33,041 nt of DNA from Phycisphaerales bacterium (lineage in GTDB: Bacteria > Planctomycetota > Phycisphaerae > Phycisphaerales > SM1A02). Shown here in pieces: positions 7,166 to 33,041 of this stretch. Position numbers and translations under genes: made by a program. The notes beneath the pieces were generated by a model. It did not search any database, was not told the origin of the DNA, and saw only the letters and a list, made by a program, of their open reading frames with translations. Within the stretch, counting starts at the first letter, position 1, and each line of letters starts with the position of its first letter. The DNA lies in contig JAJDDB010000018.1 of the NCBI GenBank assembly GCA_029260575.1, positions 1-33,041 on the forward strand, in the 5' to 3' direction.

Positions 7166-8302
7166 ATGGGTGTTCCCATTTCACAGATGTTCACGGTCGC
7201 GCGGTACGTGCTCAGCCAGAAGCTGCGCCGCCGGGGCCGCTATCCGCTGGTGCTGATGCTCGAGCCGCTGTTTCGCTGCAACCTTGCCTGTGCCGGCTGC
7301 GGGAAGATTCAATACCCCGCCCACATTCTGAAAAAAGACCTGCCGCTTGACGATGCGCTCAAAGCTGTCGATGAATGCGGCGCGCCGATGGTGTCAATCC
7401 CCGGCGGCGAGCCGCTGCTGTACGGCCCCATCCGCGAGCTTGTTCAGGAACTGGTCAAACGCCGCAAGTACATCTATCTGTGTACCAATGCGCTCAAGCT
7501 CACCGAAGCGCTGGATGCCAAGTGGTTCACGCCGAGCAAGTACCTGACGTTTTCCGTGCATATGGACGGCCAGTCTGATCATCACGATTTTGCGGTGTGC
7601 AGGGAAGGCACATACGACATTGCAATCAAAGCCATTCGCCAGGCAGTCGAAGAAGGCTTCCGCGTCACGACGAACACGACGCTGTTTGAAGGCGCAGATC
7701 CGAATTCCGTGCGCGGGTTCTTCGATGAAATGATGGACCTCGGCGTCGAAGGCATGATGGTGTCACCCGGCTATGCCTATGACAAGGCGCCGGATCAGCA
7801 GAACTTCCTGATGCAGCAGGAAACGAATTCGCTGTTCGAGATGATTCTTTCCAACCGTAAGAAGCGTTGGAAATTCAATCAGTCGCCGTTGTTTCTTGAG
7901 TTTCTGATGGGCGGGCGCGAATATGAATGCACGCCCTGGGGCAACCCCACGTACAACATCTTCGGCTGGCAGAAGCCGTGCTATCTGCTGCAGGAAGGCT
8001 ACGTCGACACATTTGATGAGTTGATCAACGACACCCAGTGGGACAATTACGGCAAGGCATCCGGCAATCCCAAGTGTCAGCAGTGCATGGTGCACTGCGG
8101 GTACGAGCCGACGGCTGTCGACCACACGTTCAGCAGCTTCGGCGGGATGTGGGGCACGGTGAAGGCAATGGTGTTCAACAGTTATGCAAACCCCGCAGCG
8201 GACAAGCGCCTGGCGGAAGAAGCAAAGAAAGCGCACAGCCCGCTGGCGCGGCTTGTGGAACTCGGCTTTGCAGATGATGTGAAGGACAAGGGTGCGGCGT
8301 AG
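7166..8302 (+). CDS. hpnH: Adenosyl-hopene synthase HpnH, radical SAM
   Basis: HpnH attaches the 5'-deoxyadenosyl group of SAM to hopene (diploptene), the first step toward C35 bacteriohopanepolyols. The 378-residue protein has the radical SAM cluster motif CNLACAGC, preceded by YPLVLMLEPLFR, then VSIPGGEPL and the HpnH-specific stretches VSPGYAYDKAPDQ, CTPWGNPTYNIFGWQKPCYLL and CMVHCGYEPTAV. The start is set at ATG 7166 (MGVPISQM), which matches the family N-terminus and has GGAG six bases upstream; a longer frame upstream is not supported. No other hopanoid genes are present here, so the squalene-hopene cyclase must be encoded elsewhere. Confidence 0.93.
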   Translation: MGVPISQMFTVARYVLSQKLRRRGRYPLVLMLEPLFRCNLACAGCGKIQYPAHILKKDLPLDDALKAVDECGAPMVSIPGGEPLLYGPIRELVQELVKRRKYIYLCTNALKLTEALDAKWFTPSKYLTFSVHMDGQSDHHDFAVCREGTYDIAIKAIRQAVEEGFRVTTNTTLFEGADPNSVRGFFDEMMDLGVEGMMVSPGYAYDKAPDQQNFLMQQETNSLFEMILSNRKKRWKFNQSPLFLEFLMGGREYECTPWGNPTYNIFGWQKPCYLLQEGYVDTFDELINDTQWDNYGKASGNPKCQQCMVHCGYEPTAVDHTFSSFGGMWGTVKAMVFNSYANPAADKRLAEEAKKAHSPLARLVELGFADDVKDKGAA

Positions 8303-8331
8303 TCTTGCATTTCGTTGCCTACACTTGCGAG

Positions 8332-9012
8332 ATGTTGAATATCACCATTCTCGGCACGGGTTCCGTCGGCTCAACACTCGGGCGGCGGTGGGCGCAGCGC
8401 GGTCATCGCATCACGTTCGGCTCGCGCAATCCGAATGCACCGAAAGTCCGTGATTTACTGTCCCAATGCGATGGTAATGCGAGCGCAGCAACGAATGATG
8501 AAGCCATAACCGCCGACACCCGGGTTGTTGTCATTGCCACGCCCTGGCCGGTGACGCTTGATCTTGTGCGCGTTCTTGCAGATCAACTTGCTGGCAAAGT
8601 CGTCGTCGACTGCACGAACCCTCTGCGAAACGATCTCGATGGCCTTTCAATCGGTCACGACACATCCGCAGCAGAGCAGATCGCCGCGGCCGCACCCGGC
8701 GCGAAAGTTGTCAAGGCTTTCAACTCCACCGGTGCCAACAATATGGAAAACCCGAAGTTCGGCGAGCAGAACGATGACGCGTTTATCTGCGGCGACGACA
8801 CGCACGCAAAGAACATCGTCACCGACCTTGCACAGCAACTGGGTTTTGATGTCATCGACAGCGGCGCGCTCAGGGTTGCTCGCTATCTCGAACCGCTCGC
8901 AATGTTGTGGATACACCTGGCAATGCATCAGCGCCTCGGGCGAGACATTGCGATCAAGTTGCTGCGGAGAGAGAAACCAAGTCAACTCACTCCTGCACAC
9001 AGCCGTGTATGA
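8332..9012 (+). CDS. NADP-dependent oxidoreductase, F420 reductase-like (coenzyme F420 oxidoreductase family)
   Basis: This 226-residue Rossmann-fold protein begins with the dinucleotide-binding loop ILGTGSVGSTLG and continues with ITFGSRNP, whose polar residues after the second strand suggest NADP preference. Later blocks VVVDCTNPL and VKAFNSTGANNMENP are characteristic of the NADPH:F420 oxidoreductase-like family (also seen in STEAP-type proteins). The start is placed at ATG 8332, giving MLNITILGTG, the usual position of the first strand; a TTG at 8305 is an alternative. It follows hpnH by 29 bases. Whether the organism makes F420 cannot be judged from this window, so the substrate stays open. 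Confidence 0.8.
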   Translation: MLNITILGTGSVGSTLGRRWAQRGHRITFGSRNPNAPKVRDLLSQCDGNASAATNDEAITADTRVVVIATPWPVTLDLVRVLADQLAGKVVVDCTNPLRNDLDGLSIGHDTSAAEQIAAAAPGAKVVKAFNSTGANNMENPKFGEQNDDAFICGDDTHAKNIVTDLAQQLGFDVIDSGALRVARYLEPLAMLWIHLAMHQRLGRDIAIKLLRREKPSQLTPAHSRV

Positions 9013-23980: not shown

Positions 23981-25051
23981 ATGACCGATACACCACACCA
24001 ACACCTCCCGATCGTTGATGAATTCCTTCATTATCTGCTCGATGACCGACACTTCAGTCCGTACACAGCCCGGTGTTACGGTGTCGACCTTCGGCAATAC
24101 ACCGAATTCCTCACCGATGAATTCAACATTGATTGCTCCCGTGAGGATGAACAGAAGGCCTACCAGCGCCGCCTGAACAACCACGCGCCGCAGACCAACC
24201 ACGCACCAACGAACGGCGAAGCCAGCCGTGATGTGCTTGGCACCGTCGGCCGGCCGTCGACTGTCAGCGCAGCAATGCTCGACGCCGATGTCGATCGCAT
24301 CCGGGCGTTTCTGGCCAATCTTGGTGAACAAAACTATTCCGCAGCCACGATGGCTCGCAAGATCGCCACGCTTCGATCCTTTCACCGCTGGCTCGCCAAG
24401 TGTGAAGTGATCGAATCCAACCCGATGCTGCTGATCCGTACGCCGCGACAGTCCAAGCGGCTGCCCAAAGCGATTACTGTCGAACAGGTCGAACAACTGC
24501 TGGCAGCTCCCGATGAAACAACACTGCTCGGCGCACGTGACCGCGCGATTCTCGAAACGCTGTATTCCACCGGCATTCGCGTCAGCGAACTCGTCGGCCT
24601 GAATCGCGATGGGTTTGATGATTCAAGCCAGGCCCTGATCGTCCGTGGTAAGGGACGGCGCGAACGCATGGTTCCGCTGGGCACCCACGCACTGGTTGCG
24701 CTCAAGCATTACACCGATATGCTCGACACCGAACAGCAGCAGGCCGGCGTCGCAGGCGATGAACAGTCTCCCATGTTCATCAACAAGCACGGCACCCGTC
24801 TTTCCACGCGGTCGGTCCGTAGAAAAGTCAGCAAGTATCTAGCCCAGTCAGGACTCGATCCGGAAATCAGCCCGCACACTCTTCGCCACAGCTTTGCAAC
24901 GCACCTGCTCGACAATGGCGCTGATCTGCGCTCCGTGCAGGAATTGCTCGGCCACCAGTCGCTTTCAACCACGCAGGTGTACACACATCTGACCACGCAG
25001 CGCATGCGGCAGGCGTACGACGATGCACATCCGCGCGCAGAGGCATCCTGA
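23981..25051 (+). CDS. xerC: Tyrosine recombinase XerC
   Basis: The 356-residue recombinase has an N-terminal SAM-like DNA-binding domain (FLHYLLDDRHFSPYTARCY) and the catalytic domain with Arg200 (STGIRVSEL), the lysine in RGKGRRERMVPLG, His299-x-x-Arg302 (HTLRHSFATH), LGHQSLSTTQ and nucleophile Tyr334 (VYTHL). The ending YDDAHPRA is the XerC signature, so it is the chromosome-dimer resolvase rather than a phage or integron integrase. About 50 residues are inserted in the N-terminal domain (around 50-100, acidic and Gln/Asn-rich) compared with the usual 300. No dif site was recognised nearby. The ATG at 23981 has only a weak ribosome binding site. Confidence 0.9.
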   Translation: MTDTPHQHLPIVDEFLHYLLDDRHFSPYTARCYGVDLRQYTEFLTDEFNIDCSREDEQKAYQRRLNNHAPQTNHAPTNGEASRDVLGTVGRPSTVSAAMLDADVDRIRAFLANLGEQNYSAATMARKIATLRSFHRWLAKCEVIESNPMLLIRTPRQSKRLPKAITVEQVEQLLAAPDETTLLGARDRAILETLYSTGIRVSELVGLNRDGFDDSSQALIVRGKGRRERMVPLGTHALVALKHYTDMLDTEQQQAGVAGDEQSPMFINKHGTRLSTRSVRRKVSKYLAQSGLDPEISPHTLRHSFATHLLDNGADLRSVQELLGHQSLSTTQVYTHLTTQRMRQAYDDAHPRAEAS

Positions 25052-26044: not shown

Positions 26045-27037
26045 ATGGCCAACGAAACCGAACTGCGTGATCCCTGGCTTGTCGCCGTCTGGCCGGGCAT
26101 GGGCAACGTCGCTGTCGGCGCGGGTGCGTATCTTGCTGAACAGATCGGCGCGCACCTCGTGCATGAACTGCCCGCAAGCGATCTCTTTGATATCAAGCAC
26201 GTCGAAGTCAAACAGGGCCTTGCAACCGTCGGCCGACTGCCGCGCAGCATGTTCTTCGAATGGAAAAACCCCGCTGAAGACGGCCGCGACATGCTTATCT
26301 TCATCGGCGAATCACAACCGTCCACAGGTGGGTATGCGCTGTGTCAACGACTGCTTGATTATGCACTTGCCCGCGGTGTGCGCCGCATCGTCACGTTCGC
26401 TGCGATGGCGACGCAACTGCATCCGACCGATGACCCGCGCGTGTTCGGCGTTGGGACCGACCACGACACGCTGCAGGAACTGCGTGATCTTGAAACCGAT
26501 GTTCTAGCGGAAGGACAGATCGGCGGGCTGAACGGCGTGCTGCTCGCAGCCGGCGTCGAGCGCGGCCGCTCGGGTTTGTGTCTCATGGGTGAGCTGCCAT
26601 TTTTCGCAGCCGGTGTGCCAAATCCGAAAGCATCACTTGCTGTACTCAAAGTCTTCAGTAAACTCGCAACCATCGACATTGACCTGACACAGCTCGAAGA
26701 ACAATCCAAAGCTGTCGAGCAGGGTTTGCTCGAACTGCTCGAAAAGATGCGTGAAGCAGCCCGGCAGGAATCCGATGCCGATGATGAAAGTTTCTCCGTG
26801 CCCGAATTCGCCAACGCGCCTGATAATGAAGACGACGAAGACAAGAATAATCCCGAAGCGAAAGAAGACAACGGCCCGAAGCTCGACTACAACGCCCGCA
26901 GACGGATCGAAACGATGTTCGAAGAAGCATCGCACAAGCGCGAAAAAGCGTTTCGCCTGAAAGAAGAACTCGACCGCCTCGGCGTGTTCAAACAATACGA
27001 AGACCGCTTCCTCGATCTCTTCAAGAAAGCGGATTGA
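26045..27037 (+). CDS. PAC2 family protein (proteasome assembly chaperone-like)
   Basis: The 330-residue protein carries a PAC2/DUF75 domain in residues about 1-200: PWLVAVWPGMGNVAVGAGAYL at the N-terminus, then DMLIFIGESQPSTGGYALCQRLLDYA, and GGLNGVLLAAGVERGRSGLCLMGELP. Archaeal and eukaryotic relatives assist proteasome assembly; the role of bacterial members is unclear. After residue 210 comes a coiled-coil-like helix (LEEQSKAVEQGLLELLEKM), a strongly acidic linker (NAPDNEDDEDKNNPEAKED) and a helical charged tail. The ATG at 26045 is clear. No proteasome genes are present here. Confidence 0.85.
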   Translation: MANETELRDPWLVAVWPGMGNVAVGAGAYLAEQIGAHLVHELPASDLFDIKHVEVKQGLATVGRLPRSMFFEWKNPAEDGRDMLIFIGESQPSTGGYALCQRLLDYALARGVRRIVTFAAMATQLHPTDDPRVFGVGTDHDTLQELRDLETDVLAEGQIGGLNGVLLAAGVERGRSGLCLMGELPFFAAGVPNPKASLAVLKVFSKLATIDIDLTQLEEQSKAVEQGLLELLEKMREAARQESDADDESFSVPEFANAPDNEDDEDKNNPEAKEDNGPKLDYNARRRIETMFEEASHKREKAFRLKEELDRLGVFKQYEDRFLDLFKKAD

Positions 27038-27073: not shown

Positions 27074-27095
27074 TCGCCGCGACTTGTCGCGCGGC
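27074..27095. repeat. REP-like palindrome (copy 1)
   Basis: CGCCGCGACTTGTCGCGC (27074-27091) is an imperfect palindrome, with CGCGAC paired to GTCGCG. It is an exact inverted copy of 28833-28850. It lies in the gap between two convergent genes, where the hairpin may also slow or stop transcription. Confidence 0.75.
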
Positions 27096-27102
27096 TCCAT
27101 CA

Positions 27103-27660
27103 TCAATCATCCGCCACGACCCCACGCGCACCACCGCGCGTGAATTCAATCGGCAGGCTCATAAACACCGCCAACTCTTCCGCAAGCAGATTCGCTTCAC
27201 TCTCCCGCATCTTGCGTGTCAGAACGATGTCATCGCCCTCGCCTTCCGTCGACCAGATGCGCAGTTCACAATAGAAGGATTCACCCGGCTGGCGCGTGCG
27301 GTTGAAGTACCAGTACTTCTTGACCTCGATCGCTGTACACGAATCCAAATCGTGCTCTGATGCGCGTTGAAGACCTGCAATGGAAATCCATTCGATGATG
27401 ATGTGCGCATTGCGATCGATCGTGAAACCCGATCTGCTGATGAGTACATACACGCCGCCGAGCAGCGCGGGCACCGCCAGTAGTGAACTGATAATGCCGT
27501 ACACGACATGCCCGCCGGAGTTGGGGGTGAAGTTGTGAATCGCTCCCGCCGCTGCACCGCTGCCGACAACGAGCAGACACAACCCGATCAACCGGCGCCA
27601 TACCACCGGCGCGCGCAACTCCAATCGTTCCGAATGCAGTTTGTCACGTACAAGTTTCAC
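27103..27660 (-). CDS. Membrane protein of unknown function
   Basis: The protein has two hydrophobic segments (LIGLCLLVVGSGAAAGAI and IISSLLAVPALLGGVYVLI) followed by a soluble region of about 110 residues (SGFTIDRNAHIIIEWISIAG ... LRIWSTEGEGDDIVLTRK). That order, a double membrane helix then a beta-rich domain, suggests a PH-like or DUF-type membrane-anchored protein, but I do not recognise the family. The GTG at 27660 is a tentative start. The same frame is open further upstream into the HbpS-like gene, and no ATG or Shine-Dalgarno helps to choose. Confidence 0.5.
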   Translation of the reverse strand: MKLVRDKLHSERLELRAPVVWRRLIGLCLLVVGSGAAAGAIHNFTPNSGGHVVYGIISSLLAVPALLGGVYVLISRSGFTIDRNAHIIIEWISIAGLQRASEHDLDSCTAIEVKKYWYFNRTRQPGESFYCELRIWSTEGEGDDIVLTRKMRESEANLLAEELAVFMSLPIEFTRGGARGVVADD

Positions 27661-27679
27661 AACACGTCGCTGCGATGCA

Positions 27680-28102
27680 TCAACTTGCTGCTGTGGCGCC
27701 GGCCTCGGCAACCGTGTGATCGTTCTCAACACTTGAGCCGCTGACACCAATCGCGCCGATGACTGTGCCGTCGCCGTTGGTGATCGGAACACCGCCGGGG
27801 AATGTGATCAAGCCGTCGTTGGAATGTTCGATGCCGAACAACGGCGCGCCCGGCTGACTGAGCTTGCCGATTTCGCCGGTGTTCATGTCGAAATACCGCG
27901 CGGTTTTCGCTTTGCGGATCGAAATATCGATCGACCCCAGCCAGGCGTCGTCCATGCGCGCGAACGCTTTGAGGTTCCCGCCGACATCGACAACAGCAAT
28001 GTCCATCTTCGTGTCAATGGCTTCCGCCTTGCGCATCGCAACTTCAACAGCAGCCTGCGCCTGCGTAAGTGTGATGTCGTTCATCGTCATGGTAACTGTC
28101 AT
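27680..28102 (-). CDS. HbpS/GlcG-like heme-binding family protein
   Basis: The 140-residue protein matches the GlcG/HbpS family: [39 protein letters not shown]-type core (here IAVVDVGG), [21 protein letters not shown] and [17 protein letters not shown]. Family members include the extracellular heme sensor HbpS and GlcG of unknown role. It has no signal peptide and no added domains. The start at 28102 is supported by AAGGA eight bases upstream. The next gene follows on the same strand and they may be co-transcribed. Confidence 0.85.
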
Positions 28103-28168: not shown

Positions 28169-28186
28169 CGCCGCGATTCATCGCGC
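28169..28186. repeat. REP-like palindrome (copy 2)
   Basis: CGCCGCGATTCATCGCGC is identical to 28811-28828. It sits four bases beyond the end of the broken RAYT transposase, so the transposase remnant is bracketed by REP copies. Confidence 0.75.
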
Positions 28187-28189
28187 GTT

Positions 28190-28788
28190 TCATATAGCCG
28201 GCTCATACTCGGTCAAAAATCCCCAGTTCTGCGCCGGCATGCCGGCCTTGAGCGGATTGTCCTGCACATATCGAATTGCTGCACGCATATGCGATTCGGA
28301 ATCAATGAACGGACACCAATATCCTCGCGCCCACGGCGAAGGCACACGCCCATTCTCCGATGCATACGTCTGTAGCGGATGTACGTTCTCCGTGTTCATC
28401 TGCCGTGTCGCTGCAGATTTCAGATGCGCAGCAATCTGATCAATATGCACCGAATGGCGTCGCATCACGAGATGTACATGATCGCGCATGATGGCCAGTG
28501 CATGCATGACATATCGACGTTGCCCACCAGCATTGACAAAACCGCGCGCGATCGCGCGAGCCTGTTCGCCGGTGAACTGTACCGGCGGATAGCGCAGCGC
28601 ATCCTTCGCTGCAGCGCGTCTCGTATAATCATGTGGCACATGCGCGACGGATCGTGTTGTAATCACCTTCGTCGCCGGCCGAACACGCGCAAATCGATTC
28701 CACGCACCACATCCGACCACGACCCACGCGGATCGTTGGGCAACCAGAATCCATACGCGCTGAAGATAAAGTGATACCCCAAAACCAT
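28190..28788 (-). pseudogene. REP-associated tyrosine transposase (RAYT), frameshifted
   Basis: RAYT enzymes of the Y1 HUH family mobilise REP palindromes. The first part, from ATG 28788, reads MVLGYHFIFSAYGFWLPNDP then RGSWSDVV. The rest, in another frame, continues RFARVRPATKVITTRSVAHV and holds the metal-binding motif DHVHLVM, then ATRQMNTENVHPL, SPWARGYWCPF and the family ending IRYVQDNPLKAG. The two frames meet near 28705-28720: one base appears to be missing after the VVR codons, and the first frame ends shortly after in RRRR-stop. The downstream frame could start at GTG 28720 but would lack the conserved HFIFSAYG strand. A sequencing error is the alternative. Confidence 0.75.
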
Positions 28789-28810: not shown

Positions 28811-28850
28811 CGCCGCGATTCATCGCGCCATAGCGCGACAAGTCGCGGCG
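28811..28850. repeat. REPIN: two REP palindromes in inverted order
   Basis: CGCCGCGATTCATCGCGC (28811-28828) and GCGCGACAAGTCGCGGCG (28833-28850) face each other across CATA. The first is identical to copy 2, the second is the inverse of copy 1. Two REP units in inverted orientation are the REPIN form thought to be the mobile unit. It lies 22 bases upstream of the RAYT start. Confidence 0.8.
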
Positions 28851-28868: not shown

Positions 28869-29630
28869 TCACGCCGTCATTTTCAACGATGCATCCGCCG
28901 CGCGGTCATCGTTCGCTTGCTTCTGCTTGCGCAGCGCTTTGATCGCAAGCACCATCGACACGGGCAGCGACCATTCGCTGACGTTCGGGCCCTTGTTGTC
29001 GTTGTAGCCGGCCCAGCGCGCGTAATACGTCGGCCGCAGGCCGCGCGCGAGCATGTCAAAGTCCTGGCTCACGAGCATCTTGCTCTTCGTGAACGAACCC
29101 ACCGGCCGCGCCTCGGACACCTTCGGCCTCGGCTCGCCCGGGCCGCTGTATGCCACCCATAACTCCAGCCGCGCCGCACCGTACGGCCTCGCGGGGGACG
29201 TCGGCGTGTTGGTATGGTGATATCGCAGTTCATCAATACCCGGCAGCGAACCAATGAACTTCAACAGCGGCGGCGTATTCGGACACACACGCTTGTGATG
29301 CGACACATTGCGCGGCTGCACACCGATGCCGAGCTTGTCGCCATCCGTGATGCCATCGTTGATCTTGATGAATGCAGCCTGCTTGCGGATCGCGTCTTCA
29401 AGAATCGACCGCGCATCGTCCTTGTTGGCAATCGCGCCGCGCGTGCGCGTTCCGGGGCTTCGGGCAGTCTTTAGAGCGGCATTGAACTCGTTGAACCACC
29501 GCATCAGCGATGCAGCTTCGGCCGGAACCATCATGTACCGCGCAGGATCAGCGCTGATGTTATTGCAGAACGCCTCAGCGAAGAGTTGAAACTTTCCATC
29601 GGCACGCGGAATGTTCGGTTCGGCAGCCAT
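28869..29630 (-). CDS. Uncharacterised protein with helical N-terminus and C-terminal beta domain
   Basis: The 253-residue protein begins MAAEPNIPRADGKFQLFAEA and has a helical first half (SLMRWFNEFNAALKTARSPG; DDARSILEDAIRKQAAFIKI). A conserved-looking GIGVQPRN block follows. The second half looks like a fibronectin-type beta sandwich (LELWVAYSGPGEPRP ... TYYARWAGYNDNKGPNVSEW). I recall similar proteins of about 200-250 residues in Bacteroidota and Planctomycetota with no assigned function. The ATG at 29630 has GAG eight bases upstream; a GTG at 29639 is possible. It lies between the REPIN and the second 21-bp array. Confidence 0.65.
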   Translation of the reverse strand: MAAEPNIPRADGKFQLFAEAFCNNISADPARYMMVPAEAASLMRWFNEFNAALKTARSPGTRTRGAIANKDDARSILEDAIRKQAAFIKINDGITDGDKLGIGVQPRNVSHHKRVCPNTPPLLKFIGSLPGIDELRYHHTNTPTSPARPYGAARLELWVAYSGPGEPRPKVSEARPVGSFTKSKMLVSQDFDMLARGLRPTYYARWAGYNDNKGPNVSEWSLPVSMVLAIKALRKQKQANDDRAADASLKMTA

Positions 29631-29687
29631 GTGCAGCACTCTTTATCGGCGCTAGCGAGTCACCGCTGAACCGAGAAACCCAGCAAT

Positions 29688-29960: not shown

Positions 29961-32456
29961 CTATTTCCGTGAAGGTTTCGGGGATACCGTAAAGGAAGAT
30001 ATAAATAGATCTGGCAGTAGTTGGTATGTCGATAGCAACTTGGCCACTTCTGCAGACTTCCCAAATCCCGGAAGCCTCGACACAGCTACACAATATTGTG
30101 TAATCGATTCTCTAAACTTTGAGAGCTTCTCTGCCGTAATCACTCTCGTTCCCGGCGCGGGCGTAGCGGCATCTTCAAATGTGGATGACGGATGCACCAT
30201 TATGGGAATAGCAGTACACGTCTGATCGTACTCCATCCCGAACCAATTGATTGATCCGGCAAGCTGATTACAGTCTTTTTTGTTGATCTTGCTAGATGTC
30301 GCTTCGTTCTTACATTCGATGACTAGATACCTCAGTGCACCGACTGCCCACAACACATCAGGTCCAGCGCCGTATTCAGCTTCCGGCAATTGCGACTGAC
30401 ATCCAATCATGCGAGCAGCGTCCTTTAAGGCTCGCTCGAATCTTTTATGCGAGTTCGGTCTAAACGCCAGATCATCTACGGTTGCATTTACTGCCACAAT
30501 AAGATCGTTTGGCCGTTCGAATTCACCCCTCAGATAAGAGATACTCGCACTCGCCTGTTCACCTACAACAGGCTCAATTCGCTGGTAGTCTACTCCGACC
30601 AATGGCCTAATCAATTGGCGATTGAGCTTTACTGCCGACATAAGTATTTGCTGCGCCTCTGCCTTGTCTACAACATGCGTATATTCGGCAAGTTCTGCCA
30701 TCAGCCACCCTTTGAGCATGAGATTATGGACTGAATTAACGCGTTCTTGTATCAAGTTGATTGATGTATTGTAATCGTCAATCTCAGCGGAGTTAAACGC
30801 ACGCCGCCGTGCCACTGCAATCTCAATGTCAGTGCTCGCCGTTGCATATGTAATGTGAACGAGTGCTGACTTCGCCGCCCTTACCCATTCTGGGTTGCGG
30901 GTAAGGCAGTAGTCGATTGCACCGCCAATTTCCTCAATACTCTTGCCGCGCACTTGGTTGCCAACTTGCTCAGACAAATCAAATTGAGCCCGAGTGGCGG
31001 GCGTAAATCGATCAATGCCATGGTTCGTGAAGAGCTGTGATGTTAGAGTTGCGCCCATCAAAAGCACTACACAATAATCGTCACTAGCGCGAACACCACG
31101 TCCCATACCCTGTTCGATTTGCTGAATCGACTTTCCCACAGCCAAGGGGGTTCCATAGAGAAGAGAACCCTGCTCTATCTGGTCAATGGCTCGCCTAGCG
31201 GCTGGCAGGCCATCAAGAACCAGCAACCTGCATGCGTCATACGGCAAATCAATTCCGTCGTACTTGTTCACAAGGACTACAAGTCCAACGTGACCCGCAT
31301 TCAACTTGGCCACGCCATTCTCAAGGTTTTCTGCGGTCAATGTCTCGGCCGCAACATCAGACCAAAACTCAGCACGATAGTTTGAAGGAACTATTACAAC
31401 TACATTGCATGTCTTCGCCAGTCTTGACGCGTATAACTTGATTTGTTCAGCTGTGACTTCAGGATTCAACTCTTGGGGCACAAGAACCAGTCGATCCCCA
31501 ATATCACTTGCAGTGGCAGGGGCAATCGCAGTTGCAATGTTCTCTGGATTGGCATTGAAGTCCGTAATGAGCACACTATCATCCGCAAAAGTCGCGCTCA
31601 TGAAGATTCTGCGTTCAGCCTGAGCAAAACTTGGAATGACATCTACCGGGAGACATTTTGGTGATATCTCCACATGGCCACCGCCGAACACGCAACGACA
31701 AAATCGGAGATGTTCCCGAATAAGTGGCCAGCAAAATTTTATGTTGTCATGCTCTCTGTGCTCGTGAATGATTGTTTCGACCTGCTGAACCTTGTCAAGC
31801 CACGCCCAGAAAGGTACGAGCATGAGCCGATTCCGCTCATGCTGTTCAATTTCCAATACTTTGCTGGTTGACTGTGACTCAAGATCACTTCGAAACAACT
31901 CAAACAGTTCATCATAAACAGGACTGGTAGCCTCAAGATCGAGGGTAAACTGTTGTTCGGCAGTTGCCAAACAGGCATGAACGTCATCTAAGATTAGACT
32001 ACCGATAGGAATCTGCGGCCCCTGTCCACCAACTCCAAATTTTGACTTGCCGTTCAACAGCACATGAATGTTGGTCACTAGAATGGCACTGCCGCGAGAA
32101 ACGGCAATAGAACGAGGTTCTGTTTCCACCGCTAGACCAAGCGCTTGCGCCTCTTGAACGACCTGCGATACAAGGTAAGGTGTAGGTGCGACGTAGACCG
32201 CCGGACCTTTCTTTTCGTTTAGACACGACTTGAGAATAAGAAGGCCAACGACTGTTTTGCCGCCCCCAGTATTCATCTTCAGGCGATGATCTATTTTAGA
32301 TCTTGCCTGAAACCATTGGTCGAGCACCTCCGATTGCACGTCGCGCAGGTATCGGTACTTCTGCTGCTTGCCTGGAAGAACAGCAAAGAGATCCCGTGGA
32401 TTGATGACCGTATCTGCAGTGGACGGCGCGGCAATTTTCGTAAAATCGAGACCCAT
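29961..32456 (-). CDS. Large superfamily 2 helicase with C-terminal PD-(D/E)xK nuclease signature
   Basis: This 831-residue protein has Walker A at 61-68 (MNTGGGKT), motif II DDVH at 157-160 (SLILDDVHACLA, with Asp instead of Glu in DEAH), motif III-like FMSATFADDS and a motif VI-like QGMGRGVRASDDY. This places it near DinG/XPD-type helicases. Between the lobes sits an alpha-helical insertion. The C-terminal 150 residues contain GPDVLWAVGALRYLVIECKN. Asp700 and Glu714-x-Lys716 fit a PD-(D/E)xK nuclease, with KKDCNQLAGSI after it. AGGGG precedes the ATG at 32456. It stands alone, 33 bases past icd, and looks more A+T-rich than its neighbours by eye. A role in phage defence is inferred, not shown; no known system was recognised. 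Confidence 0.75.
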   Translation of the reverse strand: MGLDFTKIAAPSTADTVINPRDLFAVLPGKQQKYRYLRDVQSEVLDQWFQARSKIDHRLKMNTGGGKTVVGLLILKSCLNEKKGPAVYVAPTPYLVSQVVQEAQALGLAVETEPRSIAVSRGSAILVTNIHVLLNGKSKFGVGGQGPQIPIGSLILDDVHACLATAEQQFTLDLEATSPVYDELFELFRSDLESQSTSKVLEIEQHERNRLMLVPFWAWLDKVQQVETIIHEHREHDNIKFCWPLIREHLRFCRCVFGGGHVEISPKCLPVDVIPSFAQAERRIFMSATFADDSVLITDFNANPENIATAIAPATASDIGDRLVLVPQELNPEVTAEQIKLYASRLAKTCNVVVIVPSNYRAEFWSDVAAETLTAENLENGVAKLNAGHVGLVVLVNKYDGIDLPYDACRLLVLDGLPAARRAIDQIEQGSLLYGTPLAVGKSIQQIEQGMGRGVRASDDYCVVLLMGATLTSQLFTNHGIDRFTPATRAQFDLSEQVGNQVRGKSIEEIGGAIDYCLTRNPEWVRAAKSALVHITYATASTDIEIAVARRRAFNSAEIDDYNTSINLIQERVNSVHNLMLKGWLMAELAEYTHVVDKAEAQQILMSAVKLNRQLIRPLVGVDYQRIEPVVGEQASASISYLRGEFERPNDLIVAVNATVDDLAFRPNSHKRFERALKDAARMIGCQSQLPEAEYGAGPDVLWAVGALRYLVIECKNEATSSKINKKDCNQLAGSINWFGMEYDQTCTAIPIMVHPSSTFEDAATPAPGTRVITAEKLSKFRESITQYCVAVSRLPGFGKSAEVAKLLSTYQLLPDLFISSFTVSPKPSRK

Positions 32457-32475: not shown

Positions 32476-32493
32476 ATGAGGTTAGCTCCTCAT
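32476..32493. terminator. Short hairpin at the icd 3' end
   Basis: ATGAGG (32476-32481) pairs with CCTCAT (32488-32493) around TTAGCT, overlapping the icd stop codon. There is no T-run. It may only be a weak terminator or a leader structure for the helicase gene. Confidence 0.25.
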
Positions 32494-33041
32494 GCCCCCG
32501 CCATGGCCGGTTTCCCAGCGCCCATGTGCTTGATGATGTCATCTGCGAACTCGCTGCACTTGCGCAGCGTTGCTCCGTCCATCAGGCGTTCGAAGTCGTA
32601 GGTCACAGTCTTTGCGCTGATCGCGCCTTCGATGCCTTTGACGATGAGGTCTGCAGCTTCTTCCCAGCCCATGTAGCGCAGCATCATTTCGCCGCTGAGG
32701 ACCACGCTGCCCGGGTTGACCTTGTCCAGGTTCGCGTACTTCGGCGCGGTGCCGTGCGTGGCCTCGAAGATTGCGTGGCCGCTGTCGTAGTTGATGTTCG
32801 CGCCGGGGGCGATGCCGATGCCGCCCACCTGGGCCGCCAGCGCGTCGGACAGGTAATCGCCGTTGAGGTTCATCGTCGCGACCACGTCGTAGCTCTTGGC
32901 CCGCGTGAGCACCTGCTGGAGGGTGATGTCGGCGATGGTGTCGCGGATGAGCAACTTGCTCTTCCACTTGCCGTCTCCGTGCGTGTCCCAGAGCTTCATG
33001 GCGGTTTCCACTTCGGCGCGAATCGTCGCCTGCTGGTCGGG
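32490..33041 (-). CDS. icd: NADP-dependent isocitrate dehydrogenase, C-terminal part
   Basis: Icd oxidises isocitrate to 2-oxoglutarate in the TCA cycle. Only the last 183 residues are in the window; the reading frame continues beyond the right edge. The blocks [63 protein letters not shown] and [14 protein letters not shown] match bacterial homodimeric Icd closely, including the NADP-side HGTAPKYA segment. The helicase gene begins 33 bases after its stop on the same strand. Confidence 0.95.

Follow-up and report, generated by a model that had tools for sequence, protein, structure and literature searches.

An Hna-family gene lies 33 bp behind icd in a Phycisphaerales bacterium

The 831-residue protein matches Hna along its whole length

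The window, that is the whole stretch of 33,041 nucleotides analysed here, encodes at 29961–32456 on the minus strand an 831-residue protein that belongs, over its full length, to the Hna family, listed by PADLOC under the candidate number PDC-S28. The gene is very probably a single-gene abortive-infection defence of this family, probably acquired horizontally, and it sits 33 bp behind icd. Hna has already been named, its structure has been solved and a mechanism has been proposed; the present gene adds one more member.

The reading frame begins with ATG in the ORF listing, and frame 1 of the plus strand over the same interval is full of stops on translation. Pfam models DEAD, ResIII and Helicase_C_2 each match the protein above their curated cut-offs, which confirms the SF2 helicase core proposed in an initial annotation of this DNA. 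Together, the ORF, PADLOC, phmmer and the structural model describe an SF2 core followed by a C-terminal PD-(D/E)xK nuclease. The same annotation had judged by eye that the gene differs in composition from its surroundings. Indeed, its GC content (0.489) lies below that of all 275 equal-length stretches of positions 1–29960 (0.533–0.600), and its GC3 is 0.474 versus 0.54–0.87 in the 14 other genes measured.

The first PDC-S28 model, PDLC04986, covers residues 3–826 with 1024 bits and scores 1020 bits on the Hna of Sinorhizobium meliloti (pSymA), so the full-length family profile fits this protein as well as it fits the type member. The second model, PDLC04987, gives 402 and 400 bits, respectively, and both models are matched by all 60 members of our alignment, the 831-residue protein included. 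We considered the two models as subfamilies parting this protein from S. meliloti Hna and rejected the idea, since both score alike on both proteins. On pSymA, S. meliloti hna (locus L013) starts with GTG and encodes 845 residues. Comparing the protein with every PDB chain by phmmer, at E values up to 1, gave one distinct sequence, 10uj_A (845 residues, E 8e-120). PDB 10UJ is the Hna monomer and 9YKJ the Hna dimer of S. meliloti, as described in the accessible text of PMC13381803.

The AlphaFold2 model, built from an alignment of 60 sequences, has a mean pLDDT of 91.3 and a pTM of 0.88. Its best fold match in the PDB is 9yhn, entitled 'Hna Monomer' (E 2e-66, TM 0.92/0.94, rmsd 2.2, 830 columns), followed by two chains of 9ykj (E 1e-46 and 4e-29). 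DinG and XPD structures start at E 4e-11, the best non-Hna match being a type IV-A1 CRISPR DinG. Hence, the earlier statement that the protein matches no named system has to be withdrawn: by PADLOC score, phmmer E value and fold similarity it is Hna, and a direct match to a described system had been set beforehand as a refuting outcome. The accompanying guess of an anti-phage family is well supported at the family level, through membership in Hna.

The gene thus resembles that of S. meliloti Hna (pSymA; PDB 10UJ, 9YHN, 9YKJ) in being a single gene, in length (831 versus 845 residues) and in domain order, and the likeness extends to the predicted fold over 830 columns, to the P/D/E/K nuclease signature and to the R/Q residues linked to ATP. 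PDC-S28 designates the same family, with near full-length matches by both proteins, under a candidate number only.

Nuclease and ATP residues are conserved

The three SF2 motifs align with those of the Hna family. They comprise NTGGGKT (residues 62–68; 32253–32273, minus strand), the Walker A motif, or motif I; DDVH (residues 157–160; 31977–31988, minus strand), motif II; and QQIEQGMGRGVR (residues 445–456; 31089–31124, minus strand), motif VI. DDVH had been called divergent; it is a minor variant of the family form DDAH, the 101 sequences of the protein's own clade having DDAH in 89 cases, DDVH in 7, DDTH in 4 and DDMH in 1.

Conservation was evaluated on 122 distinct homologues: 101 from the own clade, 13 from the S. 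meliloti clade and 8 outside both. These clades are taken from a midpoint-rooted FastTree tree, in which the own side has 101 tips (support 0.878, with an inner group of 100 at support 1.0), and 13 tips lie on the S. meliloti side (support 0.999). The 831-residue protein and S. meliloti Hna fall in separate clades and are 30% identical.

The nuclease signature spans residues 699–716 (30309–30362, minus strand) and was placed by alignment with S. meliloti Hna and by the strands of the model. P699, D700, E714 and K716 align with P712, D713, E727 and K729 of S. meliloti Hna. All 101 own-clade and all 13 S. meliloti-clade sequences have D700, E714 and K716, whereas P699 is shared by 98 of the 101 and by all 13; of the eight homologues outside both clades, every one has E, seven each have D and P, and six have K. 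The C-terminal domain of the model contains a helix (670–683), strands 687–689, 701–706 and 709–715, a helix (726–742) and a strand (748–754). D700, E714 and K716 therefore stand at the positions given earlier, preceded by P699, and the proposed helicase–nuclease fusion with a C-terminal nuclease fold is borne out by the P/D/E/K alignment and by the strands and helices of the model. In S. meliloti Hna, the K729A substitution abolishes nuclease activity (PMC13381803, accessible text).

On the ATP side, R38 and Q41 correspond to R36 and Q39 of S. meliloti Hna; of the 101 own-clade sequences, 79 have R and 100 have Q at these columns. The R36A/Q39A substitutions are reported to abolish the ATPase activity of S. 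meliloti Hna and to raise cleavage, and the enzyme is described, in the text accessible to us, as being without an iron–sulphur cluster (PMC13381803). The helicase label refers to the SF2 fold alone: unwinding was not apparent in vitro for S. meliloti Hna, according to the same text (PMC13381803).

Two distant relatives from viral contigs (L135:8001–9734 and L136:8001–9446) carry H at the nuclease-lysine column, in a row motif FEDH; judging from these residues, their nuclease may be altered.

The gene follows icd and was probably acquired

The 3′ part of icd (isocitrate dehydrogenase; Pfam Iso_dh, 4.4e-41) occupies 32490–33041 on the minus strand, and the contig ends inside it at 33041. The ATG of the hna-like gene comes 33 bp after the icd stop codon, on the same strand. 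The gene had been said to sit alone beside icd; it does adjoin icd, and this close spacing on one strand means that it is not wholly alone. A promoter scan of the 33-bp gap ended without a promoter-like match, so that transcription from the icd transcript is plausible, as we infer from the layout. A second icd match in the same genome (G000:C22:2147–2584, 77% identical to the copy in the window over residues 29–174) indicates two icd-like genes.

The comparison comprised 41 genomes, the own genome and 40 relatives; 34 of the 41 pass 90% completeness and 5% contamination. A homologue of the 831-residue protein was found in the own genome and in none of the 40 relatives. Icd matches of at least 71% identity are listed for 26 of the 41 genomes, own included, and with weaker matches, possibly to other dehydrogenases of the same family, the tally reaches 39. 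No hna was found by tblastn in the icd regions of seven relatives (5 to 15 kb each). One of them, G008 (locus L148), has a RAYT-like gene directly after icd (icd ends at 8005; RAYT ORF at 8072–8713). This gene is 51% identical over 174 residues to the RAYT-like gene at 28190–28720 of the window and is its best match among the 24 relatives searched; the other six icd regions gave no RAYT match. The absence from 40 relatives, together with icd and RAYT as near neighbours in one relative, suggests that the hna-like gene was probably acquired. The simplest reading, drawn from that one relative, is that the hna-like gene and a 256-residue gene were inserted between icd and the RAYT-like gene, though loss may have occurred instead. 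At L148:8072–8800, palindrome-like DNA is seen by eye beside the RAYT gene, in the same neighbourhood without hna.

The 256-residue gene (28869–29639, minus strand) is an ORF located between the hna-like and RAYT-like genes, and it belongs to an expanded family of unknown function. Counting the protein itself and fragments, its product has 21 matches in the own genome, and 7 of the 31 genomes searched (own included) contain a match; no match was found in Pfam, NCBIfam or PHROGs at E values up to 1, or in PADLOC up to 0.01. The gene at 28190–28720 (minus strand) encodes a RAYT-like Y1 transposase, with Pfam Y1_Tnp above cut-off and the NCBIfam REP-associated transposase model at 58.8 bits, below its cut-off of 80. 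A pattern search located four REP-like exact palindromes at 27076–27092, 28170–28186, 28812–28828 and 28833–28849, versus an expectation of 0.1 when one mismatch is permitted. Outside this region, a single further copy of the exact pattern was located in the 4.1-Mb assembly (C35), and the RAYT-like gene seems to have few REP copies of that form. Of the REP/RAYT DNA described as next to the gene, the transposase gene and the palindromes are thus real, with the 256-residue gene lying in between. The repeat array also placed beside it is not there, the nearest of the seven short tandem repeats in the window being at 24162–24204.

Could the gene belong to the Hna family and yet give no phage defence in this host, being unexpressed or serving, for example, in plasmid exclusion? 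The gap without a promoter-like match and a base composition unlike that of the rest of the window fit such a case, which we hold to be unlikely: the frame is fully open with its catalytic residues intact, and the closest relative among the matches listed, from a Planctomycetota MAG (locus L028, 66% identity), keeps its catalytic residues as well.

Homologues are sporadic and occur on plasmid records and viral contigs

Homologues were detected by tblastn on 255 of 72,556 plasmid records, 188 of them with one place covering at least 80% of the query, and on 1 of 50,697 phage records. Pattern scans added 36 distinct viral-contig loci (L103–L138) that encode relatives; some viruses, or host DNA within viral contigs, carry Hna-family genes. 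In genome contigs, the scans gave at least 546 stretches, the best 80 of which were kept. These homologues across phyla (best 80 of at least 546) agree with the horizontal transfer of hna described in the accessible text of PMC12445080. S. meliloti hna is located on a symbiotic megaplasmid, unlike the present gene, which lies beside icd on a 33-kb contig.

This distribution bears on whether the protein is instead a housekeeping DNA repair helicase of the DinG/XPD type, with a nuclease domain and no defence role. In the fold ranking, DinG and XPD structures come next after Hna, and the position close behind icd, 33 bp away on one strand, would suit a housekeeping gene. However, all 40 relatives lack a match, the composition is foreign, homologues occur on plasmid records and viral contigs, and the fold E value is 2e-66 to Hna versus 4e-11 to the best DinG. 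The fold ranking and the sporadic distribution lead us to discard this reading as very improbable.

We surveyed the neighbours of 12 of the best 80 genome loci, as 119 mechanically picked ORFs. At a PADLOC E value of 1e-8 they match 322 families, and no enrichment over random loci is claimed. Among the 25 of these families that were listed, each with two or three ORFs, are type III restriction–modification, a type II methyltransferase and DrmD/DrmA, as well as mad3, BrxH, HmaA, PLD helicase and SoFic. Pfam assigns the ORFs to 133 families; the 25 listed include the mobile-element families TraH, TraG_N and TniB (first ORF), and housekeeping ones such as histidyl-tRNA synthetase and PEPCK.

Comparison with other helicase–nuclease systems

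ExoDinG proteins (e.g. S. aureus DinG) share the XPD/DinG-type core and 3′–5′ exonuclease activity, the latter predicted for the protein studied here. In contrast to its C-terminal PD-(D/E)xK domain, the exonuclease domain of ExoDinG is N-terminal, as stated in the accessible text of PMC11981726. Hachiman HamB is described as a sensor helicase paired with a nuclease, and its activity is reported to be stimulated by phage SSB (PMC13381803, accessible text). The Hachiman nuclease is a separate protein, HamA, whereas here the nuclease is fused, and HamB matches with only 11 bits. A HamA and HamB pair was not found, the four neighbouring proteins scanned having no PADLOC match at E 0.01.

That the gene might act together with other genes in a larger system (Hachiman, DISARM, Zorya, SngABC-like, Pbe or type IV CRISPR DinG) is barely credible. 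The helicase part does give partial PADLOC matches (SngC 46, PbeA 33, typeIV_DinG 30 and HamB 11 bits, the last at E 0.016), and type III restriction–modification, DISARM-like and BREX-like genes lie near some homologues. Against this, helicase and nuclease form a single polypeptide that matches Hna throughout, and a partial match of this sort is also seen in S. meliloti Hna (typeIV_DinG, 45 bits). On the side of the gene away from icd, the proteins at 28869–29639, 28190–28720, 27103–27792 and 26045–27037 have no PADLOC match at E 0.01. Hachiman, DISARM, Zorya and type IV CRISPR DinG were ruled out on profile scores. PADLOC listed 11 families at E values up to 1, a range in which HMMER filters drop most matches above about 0.1, and none of them is a DISARM or Zorya signature protein.

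Mechanism expected from S. meliloti Hna

According to the accessible text of PMC13381803, S. meliloti Hna is a 3′–5′ exonuclease on single-stranded DNA with no apparent unwinding; ATP holds it as an inactive dimer, the SSB of phage 5A releases it, and its toxicity tracks nuclease activity. The accessible text of PMC12445080 reports that hna alone gives phage resistance back to strains lacking pSymA, and that infected cells die without new phages.

By homology, this mechanism is the most likely one for the 831-residue protein. Its SF2 core would bind ATP, and the protein would rest as an inactive dimer. The dimer would then be broken by a protein that the phage makes, for instance a single-stranded DNA-binding protein, and the freed PD-(D/E)xK domain would degrade single-stranded DNA in the 3′–5′ direction. 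The infected cell would die with no phage released. The protein is presumably expressed and protective in its host; a limited literature search found no phage test of it or of a member of its clade.

The loop at the dimer interface differs between clades

The identity of 30% and the separate clades suggest that details of regulation may differ from those of S. meliloti Hna. Residues 33–41 (KYRYLRDVQ; 32334–32360, minus strand) align with the HEL1 loop region of S. meliloti Hna, where T30, D31 and P34 are aligned, with small gaps, to Q31, K33 and Y36. Unlike the nuclease signature, this dimer loop is not matched: D31 and P34 of S. meliloti Hna face K33 and Y36. P occupies the P34 column in 11 of 13 S. 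meliloti-clade sequences and in 0 of 101 of the own clade, which mostly has Y (65), R (20) or F (13). The own-clade loop often reads K-F/Y-x-Y-P/L-R-D-V-Q in place of D-K-G-P-L-R-P-x-Q. With P34 missing from all 101 sequences, the T30/D31/P34 loop is not counted as defining Hna.

Mutation of T30/D31/P34 is reported to break the S. meliloti Hna dimer, and an AF3 model has SSB competing for the dimer interface; SSB escape mutations fall outside that interface (PMC13381803, accessible text). A rewritten loop, with the nuclease residues and Q39 kept, makes another dimer interface or other phage triggers possible. We therefore raise, tentatively and while leaning against it, the idea that the protein stands for a large clade of Hna in which auto-inhibition and the sensing of phage are unlike those of S. 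meliloti Hna. No special conservation of the loop was found inside the own clade; the T30, D31 and P34 columns lie at the 44th, 64th and 63rd percentile, and such middling values weaken the idea of a different switch. The small alignment gaps at the loop also call for caution.

Discussion

Hna is present in about 2% of sequenced bacterial genomes, according to the accessible text of PMC13381803. In the 2023 PADLOC library the family appears as candidate PDC-S28, PHROGs files it as phrog_16128 with function unknown, and no NCBIfam model matches the 831-residue protein above its cut-off. In our literature search, the name 'Hna' was absent from the main text of the one paper found to use 'PDC-S28'. 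For the gene itself the importance is small, one extra member of Hna. The link between PDC-S28 and Hna may help annotators, who meet a candidate number in PADLOC, no NCBIfam match above cut-off and an unknown function in PHROGs. If the tentative reading of the loop is true, the clade to which the protein belongs would sense phage in another way than S. meliloti Hna.
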